Source: a virus
Direction: 5' to 3' (one strand)
IMG/VR virus record: IMGVR_UViG_3300037847_001659
Coordinates: 790 to 23,427 of that record
DNA: 22,638 nt
The notes beneath the pieces are model-generated. The model saw only the letters and a program-made list of their open reading frames with translations. It searched no databases and was not told the origin of the DNA. Positions 6,744 through 12,763 of the stretch are shown piece after piece. The position numbers and the translations under genes were made by a program. Numbering within the stretch: position 1 is the first letter of the stretch; each line of letters starts with the position of its first letter.

Positions 6744-7181
6744 TTATTCCTCTTGTTCAATAACAGTATAATGCTCTTGATCTATTTCAATGGGAGCTTT
6801 ATCTGGCATTAAGAAGATACCTCCCCCTACGTTATGGTTCACATCAACCTTATCTACCTTCGATACACCTACTCTATCAAGTAAAGTGGTGGCAGCTGCA
6901 AGTTTATTATTAGCTTGAACTACTGGCCTCTTAGACTCCATAATCTCTACGAGCTTGAAAGCTGCTTTAGGAGCTGATGTGGCTAGTACTTCTTTAGTTA
7001 GCTCCAGTATTTCAGACTTCAAACTCTTAACAACATGGTGATGCGGAGAAGAATAACCAGCAAGTTCTGCTGCTTTCTTTGCATCCCCTTGAGTTTCTAC
7101 GAGATGTTTAAGAAAAGACTGTTGTTTTTCTGTTAGTTCTCGTTTTCTCTCTGTTTTTTCTATGTTATTTAAAACTGCCAT
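6744..7181 (-). CDS. terS: Terminase small-subunit-like protein
   Basis: This 145-aa protein starts at ATG 7181 (MAVLNNIEKTERKRELTEKQ). The N-terminal LTEKQQSFLKHLVE...GDAKKAAELAGYSS is the helix-turn-helix typical of small terminases, which recognise phage DNA for packaging. It is followed by helical oligomerisation-like segments (LELTKEVLATSAPKAAFKLV, LAAATTLLDRVGV). A longer frame reaches 7241, but its extra 20 residues fall across the promoter's -10 and -35 boxes, so I prefer ATG 7181. It is the first gene of the minus-strand operon. The promoter -10 box ends only 8 nt from the ATG, so the mRNA may be leaderless. Confidence 0.8.
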   Translation of the reverse strand: MAVLNNIEKTERKRELTEKQQSFLKHLVETQGDAKKAAELAGYSSPHHHVVKSLKSEILELTKEVLATSAPKAAFKLVEIMESKRPVVQANNKLAAATTLLDRVGVSKVDKVDVNHNVGGGIFLMPDKAPIEIDQEHYTVIEQEE

Positions 7182-7189
7182 AGTAGAAT

Positions 7190-7217
7190 AGTATATAGTC
7201 CCCTGCAGATTTGTCAA
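7190..7217 (-). promoter_or_regulatory. Sigma-70 promoter for the packaging/structural operon
   Basis: On the minus strand there is TTGACA (7217-7212), a 16-bp spacer, and TATACT (7195-7190). The -35 box is a perfect consensus and the -10 has 5 of 6 matches. The predicted start point (about 7184-7182) falls right at the ATG at 7181, so the first mRNA would have almost no leader. The flanks CTTGACAA and ACTATATACTA are shared with the plus-strand promoter. Confidence 0.75.
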
Positions 7218-7234
7218 GTTTTTTACGATAATGC

Positions 7235-7263
7235 TTGACAAGTGGCAATCTGAACTATATACT
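7235..7263 (+). promoter_or_regulatory. Divergent sigma-70 promoter for the plus-strand arm
   Basis: TTGACA (7235-7240), a 17-bp spacer, and TATACT (7258-7263) make a near-perfect host-type promoter. Its -35 faces the -35 of the minus-strand promoter, 17 bp apart, giving the inverted repeat TTGTCAAG (7211-7218) / CTTGACAA (7234-7241). Transcripts would start near 7270 and cross more than 900 nt before the first clear plus-strand gene at 8185. Confidence 0.75.
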
Positions 7264-7443
7264 AAAGTAATCCAAACCCCCAGGGTTGCATTAGTATATC
7301 CCCCACCTATTCCCCATAGACTATATAGCTCTTTAGAGTCTTTAGAGACTAAGGAGACTCGCGTTGAATTTTTATAGTAACTGGTTTATACCCTAAATTT
7401 CCCCAAAATGTATGAGTATTGTATATATATAGGGAGGGGTGGC

Positions 7444-7575
7444 ATGGTCTCCTGCGTCCCCATAGATCTTCATAGACTCAAGAGCAGAACTAATGCCCTC
7501 GTAAACTCGGAAGACTCTTTATCCTGTAGGAACTTCATAGTCTTTGAAGATCTAAGGAGGCCCAGGAGAACATAA
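7444..7575 (+). CDS. Candidate 43-aa ORF in the control region (doubtful)
   Basis: ATG 7444 to TAA 7573-7575 gives 43 aa (MVSCVPIDLHRLKSRTNALV...). An AGGGAGGGG sequence lies 5 nt before the ATG and would be a strong ribosome binding site. Against it: the product is poor in Lys, rich in Ser, Arg and Cys, and unlike its neighbours, and the frame runs through several AGACT repeats. It might be a leader peptide or a chance ORF. Confidence 0.25.
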   Translation: MVSCVPIDLHRLKSRTNALVNSEDSLSCRNFIVFEDLRRPRRT

Positions 7576-7602
7576 ACACCCCGAATAAAGAAACTAATCT
7601 AG

Positions 7603-7630
7603 TTGACAGGGAAATAAGAGACTGTAAAGT
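7603..7630 (+). promoter_or_regulatory. Possible weak internal promoter
   Basis: TTGACA (7603-7608), 16 bp, then TAAAGT (7625-7630). The -35 is perfect and the -10 has 4 of 6 matches. The region between also forms part of a bulged hairpin (GGGAA...TTCCC, 7609-7640). It could start a transcript covering the structured elements at 7816-7995. Confidence 0.3.
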
Positions 7631-7815
7631 GTCTATTCCCTACTCGAAACTCAACAGACTCCGAAGACTTAACAGGGCTAGATTACCCTTATAGATAACC
7701 TATCTATTTGATTTACCTACCATTTCCCCATCATCTCATTTCATACTACTGTATCTGCAAAGTAAGTTTAGCGGGGTGGTAATTTATTATTTTTTATTAT
7801 TAAAATTAGCGACAA

Positions 7816-7918
7816 AATCTGGGTGTAATTTGTGGGTAACTTTGTAGAGCTAATCAGCGAGAATGGGATTCTCAAAAATCCCAGTTGAGCTTTAGCGATT
7901 AAAGTTATCCATCAGATT
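7816..7918. ncRNA. Nested long-range stem structure (RNA element or origin hairpin)
   Basis: Three nested complementary arms close on a hairpin: AATCTG (7816-7821) with CAGATT (7913-7918); GGGTAACTTT (7834-7843) with AAAGTTATCC (7901-7910), nine pairs plus one G-U; and AATC (7852-7855) with GATT (7897-7900). Inside are two competing hairpins: GAGAAT/ATTCTC (7859-7873) and TGGGATT/AATCCCA (7864-7883), which share bases and cannot form together. No known riboswitch family is recognised. Since a plus-strand promoter lies upstream, it may be transcribed as a leader or small RNA; as DNA it could be a cruciform. Confidence 0.5.
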
Positions 7919-7931
7919 ATGCCAAGAAATA

Positions 7932-7995
7932 AATAATGCTCTGAGTCTGCAAAGACGAAAGAGTAACCGAAGTCTGCAAAGACGAGGGCATTATT
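7932..7995. ncRNA. Closed stem with two identical GCAA-loop hairpins
   Basis: AATAATGC (7932-7939) and GCATTATT (7988-7995) are perfectly complementary and enclose two copies of AGTCTGCAAAGACGA (starting 7944 and 7971). Each copy folds as GTCT-GCAA-AGAC, a 4-bp stem with a GNRA tetraloop. The result is a three-way-junction-like shape. A run of eight T follows at 8015-8022. It may be a second domain of the element at 7816-7918. Confidence 0.5.
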
Positions 7996-8128
7996 CCGAG
8001 CGATAGCGAGAAAATTTTTTTTCTTAAATATGAAAATATTTCTTGACTTCCCCTGGAAAATGTGTCTGTTGGTCTTTCGTTTGTCACAAATATATATAAA
8101 TAAATCTATATTTTATATATGATTATGC

Positions 8129-8158
8129 TTGTACTCAGTCACAAAAATAAGCTATACT
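8129..8158 (+). promoter_or_regulatory. Promoter with shared TTGYACTCAGTCACAA element
   Basis: TTGTAC (8129-8134), 18 bp, then TATACT (8153-8158), 27 nt before the ATG at 8185. The 16-bp sequence covering the -35 and the start of the spacer (8129-8144) recurs with one change at 11046-11061, also directly upstream of a gene. Such a repeat across -35 and spacer could be an operator or an activator site. Confidence 0.55.
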
Positions 8159-8184
8159 ATTAAATATATTTAAGGGGGTTTAAG

Positions 8185-8322
8185 ATGGCATCAAGAAAAA
8201 ATAAAGTAGCAATACCATTTTATAATAAACATCTTGGAACTTGGAGAAAGCGAACAGCAGAAAGGAAAGTCCGAGCAGAATCCAAAAAAATTATTAGAAA
8301 CGAAACAAAGGATTTAAAATGA
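8185..8322 (+). CDS. 45-aa basic protein, first gene of the plus-strand arm
   Basis: Translated directly: ATG 8185 to TGA 8320-8322, 45 aa, starting MASRKNKVAIPFYNKHLGTW and ending IIRNETKDLK. A strong purine-rich site (AAGGGGG) precedes the start. The stop overlaps the next ATG as ATGA. It is rich in Lys and Arg with one conserved-looking aromatic patch (PFYNKHLGTW). Its position just behind an early-type promoter would suit a host-takeover peptide, but that is only inference. No family is recognised. Confidence 0.65.
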   Translation: MASRKNKVAIPFYNKHLGTWRKRTAERKVRAESKKIIRNETKDLK

Positions 8323-9935: not shown

Positions 9936-10141
9936 ACACAGAACTACAAAATATGGTTGAACTTTTAATAGAATATAAAATCCCCAAAAAAAATGAAACA
10001 TTAGAAAATGTATATGATTGGATTGATTATTATATAAATGTTAAACACGCAGATTTTTTAATCTGTTTAGATTGTGAAGATTATTTAGAATCCTGTTGTT
10101 GTAATTGTGCTTGGGGTGGAGGTAATCCAGATTATGATTAA
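9932..10141 (+). CDS. 69-aa Cys-rich acidic protein
   Basis: Starting at ATG 9932 (MNTELQNMVELLIEYKIPKK), it has an acidic helical N-terminal half and a C-terminal Cys cluster, CLDCEDYLESCCCNCAW, with six Cys in 15 residues, ending GGGNPDYD. The cluster could bind zinc. An upstream in-frame TTG at 9917 exists, but GGGAG 8 nt before ATG 9932 and the ATGA overlap favour the ATG. It overlaps the GP88-like gene by 8 nt, and both are Cys-rich, so a functional link is possible but unproven. Confidence 0.65.
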   Translation: MNTELQNMVELLIEYKIPKKNETLENVYDWIDYYINVKHADFLICLDCEDYLESCCCNCAWGGGNPDYD

Positions 10142-10808
10142 AATATCTAACACTAAAAAAATGGGGAGTATCTTTTCTTGGTCTACTCAAGCGGGACATC
10201 CAAGCGAGGGCGGAAGTTGTCCCGCGTCATTCGATAGTAAAGGAAATTATGTAGACGCGTGTAAGGGTTGTTATGCCAGAGAAGGGAACTATAGATTCTC
10301 AAATGTAAAAAAAGTTAGGCAACATAATCAGGAAGACTGGAAGAGAAAAAACTTTGCAGATGAAATGATAGAATATATAGATTTGAACTGCAGATATTTC
10401 AGGTGGTTTGATAGTGGCGATATGTACCATTTAAAACTAGCTGAAAAAATTTATGAGATATGCAAGGCGACTCCACATTGTAAGCATTGGATTCCTACCA
10501 GACAATACAAATTCCCAAAGTTTGATAATGTGATTGAACGATTGAACGCATTGCCAAATGTCGTTGTTAGATTCTCTTCTGATTCTGTAGTTGGTCACAC
10601 AGTCACAGGAAAAAACACTAGCACCATTGCGCCAAACTTCCATATCAAATCTTTGCCTAAATCATTTATGAAATGCAACGCTCAAGATCAAGAAGGACAA
10701 TGTAAATCTTGCAGACATTGTTGGGATAAGAAAATCAAAGTTGTTGTTTATCCTTCGCATGGTCAGAGAATAAGAACAGTATTAAGAGAGAGAGGTTTAA
10801 CACAATGA
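10134..10808 (+). CDS. GP88-like Cys-rich phage protein
   Basis: This 224-aa protein starts at ATG 10134 (MIKISNTKKMGSIFSWSTQA), with GGAGG 12 nt upstream. It has CPASF, then ACKGCYAREGNYRF, then RWFDSGDMYHLKLAEKIYEI, WIPTRQYKFP, VVVRFSSDSVVG, and a C-terminal Cys cluster CNAQDQEGQCKSCRHCW. The CKxCYA, R(W/H)xDSGD and TR(Q/S) pattern matches the phage 'gene product 88' family, a relative of DUF5131-type proteins, as I remember it. Their biochemical activity is not established; the Cys sets could hold an Fe-S cluster or zinc. Its stop overlaps the next ATG (ATGA). The nearby methyltransferase hints at DNA or nucleotide modification, but that is speculation. Confidence 0.7.
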   Translation: MIKISNTKKMGSIFSWSTQAGHPSEGGSCPASFDSKGNYVDACKGCYAREGNYRFSNVKKVRQHNQEDWKRKNFADEMIEYIDLNCRYFRWFDSGDMYHLKLAEKIYEICKATPHCKHWIPTRQYKFPKFDNVIERLNALPNVVVRFSSDSVVGHTVTGKNTSTIAPNFHIKSLPKSFMKCNAQDQEGQCKSCRHCWDKKIKVVVYPSHGQRIRTVLRERGLTQ

Positions 10809-11366: not shown

Positions 11367-11522
11367 ATGACTAAAGTAATGACTAAAGTAATTATAGAAT
11401 TAGAGTTTGATAATCTTAAAAATAATTACGAAGTAAATGATTCAGAAGTCTATAATTATTTACAAGAATTAATAGACAATGATTGTTTAACTTATGTAAA
11501 GGAGGAAGTATGGAGGCAATAA
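11367..11522 (+). CDS. 51-aa acidic protein with duplicated start
   Basis: Translated directly: ATG 11367 to TAA 11520-11522. The first 24 nt are an exact tandem repeat of ATGACTAAAGTA, so the protein starts MTKVMTKVIIELEFDNLKNN, and either ATG could be used; both give the same frame, differing by four residues. A GGAG lies 14 nt before the first ATG. The 3' end overlaps the methyltransferase start by 13 nt and contains that gene's ribosome binding site. Acidic, no family recognised. Confidence 0.6.
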   Translation: MTKVMTKVIIELEFDNLKNNYEVNDSEVYNYLQELIDNDCLTYVKEEVWRQ

Positions 11523-12763
11523 ATGTATTCTCATTATTTGATGGAATGTCTTGCGGTCAGTTGGCATTGAAAAAAGCAGGTGTACCAATAGGTATTTACC
11601 ATGCTAGTGAGATTGATAAATGGGCAATCAAAGTAACTAAAAAGAACTTCCCATTCACAATACAAATGGGAGACATAACTAAACTTGAAGACGCTAGATT
11701 AGAAGTCATTAGAAAACACATAGGCATTGATCTTGTTATGGGTGGCTCACCTTGTCAGGGATTTAGTTTTGCAGGAAAGAATTTAAACTTTGAAGATCCC
11801 CGATCTAAACTGTTCTTTGATTTCGTCAGAGTCTTAAAGATTCTCAAGCCAAAATATTTCTTACTTGAAAATGTCCGAATGAAAAAGGAAAGCCAAGATG
11901 TTATCAGCGAGTATCTTGGGGTTGAACCCATAGCTATTAATTCGAACTTAGTGAGCGCACAGAATCGTCACAGACTTTATTGGACTAACATACCTTTTGA
12001 TATGCCTAAAGATAAAGGAATTATACTTGCTGATATTCTAGAGGACGGAGTAACAGACAGAGAGAAATCACATTGCCTTGATGCTAATTACTTTAAGGGT
12101 GGCAATCTTAAAAGTTACTTTGAGAAACACAGAAGGCAATTAGTATTCAATAATGATGTAGCTATTTATCAATTACCAAGAGGATATAATAAAGGCGGAG
12201 TTACTTCTTCATCTGTGGAAAAAGGAAAAACTCCTTCATTAACTTCTTCATCTTGGCAATACAATAATTACCTTGTAAAAAAAGGCGGTGCTATTCGTGG
12301 TCGCTATGATAAAGATGGAAAGATTCAACAACAATTAGAACTCCGACCTGATGATAAAACAAACTCACTTACTACTGTTCAAAAAGATAATGTAGTTGTT
12401 AGCGGTTGTATCCAAGTAGGCGAGGCAGACTTAAAAGGACACGACATAATCAAAAGAGTTTACAGTAGGAAAGGCAAAGCACCAACGCTTACAACAATGG
12501 GTGGTGGTCATAGAGAACCTAAAGTAATTGTTGATGAGTTGACTTGGAGAAAACTAACACCTCTTGAGTGTGAGAGATTGCAAACAGTACCAGACGGATA
12601 CACAGAAGGAGTATCGAATACTCAGAGATATAAAATGTTAGGCAATGGGTGGACTGTAGATGTGGTTGCTCATATTTTGAAAGGCATAAAACAAAAAGAG
12701 AGGAGAGTTTACCAAAAGGATACGGAAGAATACAATGCACTTCCTGTTCGTGGACATTGTTGA
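11510..12763 (+). CDS. dcm: DNA (cytosine-5)-methyltransferase
   Basis: This 417-aa enzyme transfers a methyl group from SAM to C5 of cytosine, probably protecting phage DNA from host restriction or marking it. Motif I is FSLFDGMSCGQLALKKAG (residues 7-24). Motif IV is GGSPCQGFSF, with nucleophile C82. Motif VI is ENVR, with E120. Motif VIII is QNRHRLYW, with R153 and R155. Motifs IX-X are near the C-terminus (LTPLECERLQTVPDGY; KMLGNGWTVDVV). The region between VIII and IX, which carries target recognition, holds three repeats of the type K(T/A)xxLT(T/S) at about residues 240, 283 and 323. ATG 11510 with AAAGGAGG is preferred over an upstream TTG at 11483. Target sequence cannot be read from the protein. 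Confidence 0.93.
   Translation: MEAINVFSLFDGMSCGQLALKKAGVPIGIYHASEIDKWAIKVTKKNFPFTIQMGDITKLEDARLEVIRKHIGIDLVMGGSPCQGFSFAGKNLNFEDPRSKLFFDFVRVLKILKPKYFLLENVRMKKESQDVISEYLGVEPIAINSNLVSAQNRHRLYWTNIPFDMPKDKGIILADILEDGVTDREKSHCLDANYFKGGNLKSYFEKHRRQLVFNNDVAIYQLPRGYNKGGVTSSSVEKGKTPSLTSSSWQYNNYLVKKGGAIRGRYDKDGKIQQQLELRPDDKTNSLTTVQKDNVVVSGCIQVGEADLKGHDIIKRVYSRKGKAPTLTTMGGGHREPKVIVDELTWRKLTPLECERLQTVPDGYTEGVSNTQRYKMLGNGWTVDVVAHILKGIKQKERRVYQKDTEEYNALPVRGHC

Follow-up and report, generated by a model that had tools for sequence, protein, structure and literature searches.

The hairpin that an earlier note had flagged at positions 7816 to 7918 of the window (the whole stretch of 22,638 nucleotides that was analyzed) is one domain of a folded non-coding RNA of about 0.7 to 0.75 kb. 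On balance, we favor the reading that it represents the 3′ hairpin domain of an independent, trans-acting large structured non-coding RNA, which is apparently undescribed. The earlier note, which had been made from the sequence alone, proposed an unnamed RNA, and this is borne out by the thermodynamics, the compensatory changes, and the absence of an Rfam match and of a conserved open reading frame. It recognized a structured element correctly but drew the limits too narrowly, because 7816 to 7918 covers only the 3′ part of a structured, non-coding region on the plus strand that spans about 0.75 kb.

Locus, promoters, and extent of the RNA

HMO-2011-like phages are counted among the abundant phages in the ocean. 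The window, which comes from an IMG/VR virus record of 23.4 kb, represents a piece of the genome of a marine podovirus of this HMO-2011-like kind. Its portal protein is nearest to that of the Pelagibacter phage HTVC115P (61%), followed by those of other HMO-2011-like podoviruses; marine roseophage members of the group are treated in PMC6918029. The packaging genes terS, terL, and portal are oriented leftwards and the early and replication genes, including primase-helicase and DNA polymerase A, rightwards, with about 1 kb devoid of a conserved reading frame between the ATG of terS (7181) and the first early gene (8185). The early region also encodes a GP88-family protein and a C-5 cytosine DNA methylase (10107 to 10808 and 11483 to 12763). 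The features of the locus are the following.

6744 to 7181, minus strand: terS, small terminase (PHROGs terminase small subunit, E = 1e-6), ATG at 7181
7190 to 7217, minus strand: sigma-70-type promoter of the divergent terS/packaging operon, TTGACA-16-TATACT (11/12 in the consensus scan)
7235 to 7263, plus strand: strong sigma-70-type promoter of the RNA, TTGACA-17-TATACT (11/12 consensus match)
7270 to 8022, plus strand: proposed non-coding RNA, with a 5′ end deduced from the promoter and an uncertain 3′ end (T8 run at 8015 to 8022)
7381 to 7460, plus strand: family-wide conserved module, CTGGTT...TGTATRA...ATATATAGG...TATGGTCTCCTGCC
7436 to 7582, plus strand: long helix P4, formed by 7436-7475 and 7542-7582 and enclosing an internal loop
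7595 to 7685, plus strand: helix P5, 7595-7602 with 7678-7685 (UAAUCUAG/CUAGAUUA)
7818 to 7927, plus strand: P7, the flagged 3′ hairpin domain, in which 7818-7844 pairs with 7900-7927, with inner stems and an apical stem 7864-7870/7877-7883
7931 to 8022, plus strand: variable 3′ tail, stem 7932-7942/7985-7995, two GTCTGCAAAGAC repeats, then the T-run
8129 to 8158, plus strand: candidate early-gene promoter, TTGTAC-18-TATACT, read from the sequence and the alignment, with conserved neighbors
8185 to 8322, plus strand: first early gene, 45 amino acids, no family, no Pfam match

As had been stated in the earlier note, the element has a strong plus-strand promoter before it and the first plus-strand gene after it. 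A plus-strand promoter of the form TTGACA-17-TATAAT, TATACT, or TACAAT was present in 117 of the 118 distinct homologous intergenic regions of the wide family, with terS identities from 54 to 100%. On the opposite strand, the −35 motif of the terS promoter (TTGTCAA as read on the plus strand) was found in 173 of 186 homologous intergenic regions and the −10 motif in 171. The ATG of terS follows the TATACT −10 hexamer by 8 nt (TATACTATTCTACTATG; 7181 to 7195, minus strand), and a −10-like hexamer was located not more than 30 nt from the terS start in 171 of the 186 relatives. Because the −10 site is so close to the start, the mRNA of the packaging operon is probably leaderless or nearly so, as judged from the sequence.

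In most relatives the variable tail gives way to a T-run. No canonical intrinsic terminator hairpin was found on the way from the RNA to the first early gene, so that the 3′ end is only inferred and read-through into the early operon would be possible. The candidate promoter at 8129 to 8158 was not recovered by a stricter scan and is a weak match to the consensus. Between the T-run and this site, an AT-rich stretch at 8040 to 8062 contains repeated TTTCTTGACTYTGCCCYTGG, which occurs at the same place in L089, L095, L097, and L103 and in tandem in L089; it is a possible origin or protein-binding site. In HTVC104P (L164), a hypothetical gp89 (53651 to 53779 of the record, minus strand) is annotated inside the intergenic region, where it runs opposite to the proposed RNA in the 5′ part of the latter; it is probably a spurious open reading frame.

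Fold and compensatory changes

The whole intergenic region (7242 to 8185) folded better than its shuffled versions, with z scores of −8.3 for the plus strand and −4.7 for the minus strand. The structure of the flagged part is far beyond chance, as the earlier note had expected: for 7810 to 7925 the minimum free energy was −46.8 kcal/mol compared to −22.6 ± 3.0 kcal/mol in dinucleotide shuffles (z = −8.07, reached by 0 of 200 shuffles), and 7800 to 8030 gave a z score of −7.79 against dinucleotide shuffles. A coding explanation was rejected: no conserved open reading frame was found across the intergenic regions of the relatives, and their longest open stretches vary in frame, strand, and place.

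Relatives were reached by protein searches of viral contigs with portal and terS, which yielded close and distant ones; a nucleotide search of phage records gave no match. About 20 distinct intergenic regions could be aligned over most of the region, and the pairs were counted in an alignment of 20 sequences (A4), with 59 pairs taken from the inner part of P4, P5, and the 3′ hairpin. The shuffles used for comparison leave the relatedness among the sequences in place. The covariation that the earlier note had suggested looking for was present, with 90.9% standard pairs compared to 84.3% in the shuffles, 90 doubly changed cells compared to 35 ± 5, and a covariation score of 0.217 compared to 0.119; when one strand was slid by one to three columns, pairing fell to 31 to 42%. 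The number of pairs changed on both sides was less extreme (15 compared to 12.6 in shuffles) and the count of “further pair types” fell below the shuffles; the support is therefore drawn from the paired cells, the doubly changed cells, the covariation score, and the slid control. An unbiased scan of all possible helices on a sequence-only alignment, in which no fold was used, placed 7595-7601/7679-7685 of P5 and 7468-7472/7545-7549 of P4 at the top ranks, and both are part of the model. Compensatory changes are therefore above the controls, and the region is, by this comparative measure, a structured non-coding RNA.

In the inner part of P4, 95.8% of the cells are paired, and the pairs 7470-7547, 7471-7546, and 7472-7545 carry compensatory changes. 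The outer part has its arms exchanged as a whole between subclades: they read GGGGUG/CACCCC in the subclade of the window and GUACCCCC/GGGGGUAC in the subclade of L094 to L109, and the outer duplex had a mean energy of −17.0 kcal/mol in the native combinations compared to −4.9 kcal/mol when the arms were cross-paired between subclades. P5 is 91.3% paired, with double changes in three pairs, and cross-pairing between subclades likewise weakened its duplex, from −12.2 to −6.1.

All arms named in the earlier note and both overlapping hairpins are found in the sequence: the outer 6-bp arms (AATCTG at 7816 to 7821 and CAGATT at 7913 to 7918), the 10-bp arms (GGGTAACTTT at 7834 to 7843 and AAAGTTATCC at 7901 to 7910), the short inner pairs, and the hairpins GAGAA/TTCTC (7859 to 7873) and TGGGATT/AATCCCA (7864 to 7883). 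They fared differently in the homologues, which back the 10-bp arm, the apical hairpin 7864-7883, and the inner stem 7849-7853/7892-7896, and in addition a stem 7823-7832/7913-7922 that had not been listed. The outer 6-bp arms compete for the 3′ bases with this better-supported stem and are displaced by it; they were 82% paired in the homologues, with covariation not above that of the shuffles. The hairpin 7859-7873 was paired in 73% of the cells, did not covary, and was lost or broken in many relatives. The proposed two-state switch depends on this hairpin and is therefore not supported; a riboswitch or switch acting in cis is likewise not supported, since the two exclusive structures are not both conserved and the first downstream gene differs between close relatives.

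Two other observations concern the 3′ side of the RNA. In L098 (691 to 855) and L100, two added hairpins, GACTTCgaacaGAAGTC and AAGTCCgtaGGACTT, are situated on the 3′ side of the P7 stem. The tail is swapped among close relatives, with L084 aligning at 95.8% up to 7933 and diverging thereafter, and 7931 to 8012 is a mosaic with two GTCTGCAAAGAC hairpin repeats in the window and other sequence in L084. A perfect 12-nt complement between 7491-7502 and 7982-7993 was discarded as a long-range helix, because inspection of the alignment indicated that it is not kept in L084 or L089.

Distribution among relatives

The conserved module was found in 115 of the 118 distinct intergenic regions, 67 to 327 nt past the −10 motif. 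A profile of the module gave a hit at the expected position and on the expected strand in 183 of 186 loci, and no hit at any other position of these loci; it had been built from 47 family sequences, so that many members match by construction and the informative results are the members outside the building set and the absence of matches elsewhere. Among the cultured phages, the best profile match fell in the same intergenic region for HTVC115P (E = 0.001), HTVC103P (0.12), and HTVC104P (0.36), and the best match in HMO-2011 (E = 1.8) was in its divergent intergenic region; the matches in HTVC103P, HTVC104P, and HMO-2011 are each below significance when taken alone. The candidate helices P2 and P3 inside the 5′ module were paired in the wide family, with covariation not above that of the shuffles. 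The module, conserved in sequence and not by covariation, could thus be a protein-binding DNA site. A motif CTRGTTWAC/CTGGTTAAT is repeated several times per intergenic region in the wide family; in the window it makes up the 5′ arm of P5 and also begins the module.

The helices are distributed less evenly. Strong complementary P4-like partners exist in L094, L109, L110, L114, L117, L125, and L159, and none was found in several wider relatives by an ungapped search within 330 nt, so a uniform P4 across the wide family was rejected. The 3′ domain P7 was seen by covariance model search in one subclade and L110 only: the model (R1), built from ten sequences, found L101 to L109 and L092/L093, all outside the building set, at the corresponding place with E values from 2.5e-13 to 1.1e-6, and L110, also at the corresponding place, at E = 0.005. 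Many intergenic regions of the wide family fold better than shuffles, with plus-strand z scores often between −2.5 and −8; several z scores are near zero, including that of HTVC104P, and in some regions the minus strand scores equal those of the plus strand.

Comparison with known RNAs and weighing of the explanations

The statement of the earlier note that nothing in the arms matches a known riboswitch family agrees with the Rfam search, which yielded no match at the gathering threshold in the window or in 13 relatives and nothing credible at a permissive E ≤ 10 on 7200 to 8200. A search of the open-access literature found no description of this RNA, nor of any other RNA gene in HMO-2011-like phages. 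The lambdoid late leader (“6S”) RNA and the put RNA of HK022 originate from a strong promoter in the control region between phage operons, as the present RNA would, but each of them is a short leader that controls its own operon, whereas here the neighboring gene is not fixed and is preceded by a separate promoter-like site. The pRNA of the phi29 type, about 170 nt in size, is likewise a phage-encoded structured RNA, and the present RNA adjoins the terminase genes; the phage pRNA family had no match in the Rfam search.

Nearest in kind are GOLLD and ROOL, two large ornate RNAs that phages and prophages encode and that assemble into cages consisting of RNA alone (PMC12286853). Membership in either family is rejected, but a resemblance in kind stands. 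ROOL (about 0.66 kb) is similar in size, phage origin, elaborate non-coding fold, and the lack of an obvious cis target, yet the present RNA did not match the Rfam ROOL model at the gathering threshold or at E values up to 10. ROOL is often situated near tRNA islands (PMC12286853); this neighborhood is not obligatory and was not seen here, since ARAGORN identified no tRNA in the window, and the RNA is instead located between terS and the early genes of marine podoviruses. GOLLD (over 0.8 kb), of which marine examples are known (PMC12286853), is also a large phage RNA with one conserved and one variable part. In GOLLD, however, the 3′ region is universal and the 5′ region varies (PMC12286853), which is opposite to the pattern here, with a 5′ to central module in 115 of 118 intergenic regions and a 3′ domain in one subclade; a match to the Rfam GOLLD model was also lacking.

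According to the favored explanation, HMO-2011-like marine podoviruses encode the RNA on the plus strand, in the interval where the promoters of the packaging operon and of the early region stand back to back. Host RNA polymerase would transcribe it from the near-consensus promoter upon entry of the DNA, as a separate unit that may terminate near the T-run at about 8020. The folded RNA would then act in trans, as a scaffold or as a binding partner for a protein, an RNA, or its own copies, instead of controlling one particular downstream gene.

The main rival, which we regard as unlikely, is that the early operon has a long structured 5′ leader acting in cis, for instance, a put-like antitermination element or an attenuator that loads RNA polymerase for the whole early region. 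The RNA shares its strand with the early genes and immediately precedes them, no canonical terminator was found between the two, and a general polymerase-modifying leader needs no particular first gene. A second promoter-like site with conserved surroundings is, however, positioned between the T-run and the first gene, and a size of 0.75 kb with a variable tail is unlike put or nut sites. The first plus-strand open reading frame downstream is moreover freely replaced and a different gene in close relatives, although the RNA and terS are retained, which argues against a cis-acting leader for one gene; the retention of the RNA together with a separate candidate early promoter favors an independent, trans-acting RNA over a leader for a single gene.

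A replication origin, in which the plus-strand transcript serves as a structured pre-primer similar to ColE1 RNA II and enters the AT-rich stretch after 8010, is improbable. The divergent intergenic region coincides with a turn of the GC skew, an AT-rich stretch follows the RNA, and tandem TTTCTTGACT-TGCCC repeats occur in relatives; but divergent transcription alone predicts the skew turn, neither a conserved RNA-DNA hybrid nor a conserved processing site was recognized, and the AT-rich part is highly variable among close relatives. Slightly less probable still is a packaging start (pac or cos) or a packaging RNA, comparable to the phi29 pRNA, that works with the small terminase encoded next to it. 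It would account for terS being always adjacent in the relatives examined, for the conserved sequence module, and for the recurring CTRGTTWAC motifs, but a DNA site would not be expected to show compensatory RNA pairs and a G-U bias, the phage pRNA family is without a match, and the best, sub-threshold match in HMO-2011 is in a divergent intergenic region kilobases away from the terminase gene. The DNA cruciform, which had been offered in the earlier note as the alternative to an RNA, is the least credible explanation. Inverted repeats do exist; nevertheless, the helices are interrupted by bulges and loops, the fold and the P7 model score far higher on the plus strand than on the minus strand (141 compared to 38 bits for the model), and the non-Watson-Crick changes at supported pairs were 65 G-U and 11 A-C. 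This excess of G-U over A-C indicates a plus-strand RNA, and neither a cruciform nor a minus-strand RNA explains it.

More tentatively, a family of large ornate RNAs may exist throughout the HMO-2011-like phages, made at once by the host polymerase from a near-consensus promoter and acting in trans. If so, this would be an ornate-RNA family of its own, perhaps of self-assembling or protein-scaffolding RNAs for host takeover or particle assembly; we know of no earlier ornate-RNA family from pelagiphages. The best matches in cultured pelagiphages, HTVC115P and, weakly, HTVC103P and HTVC104P, are in the same intergenic region, which makes the proposal testable in laboratory phages. That a folded RNA of 0.7 kb behind a strong promoter is kept across the group, while the early gene next to it is exchanged, points to a core function overlooked by gene annotation.
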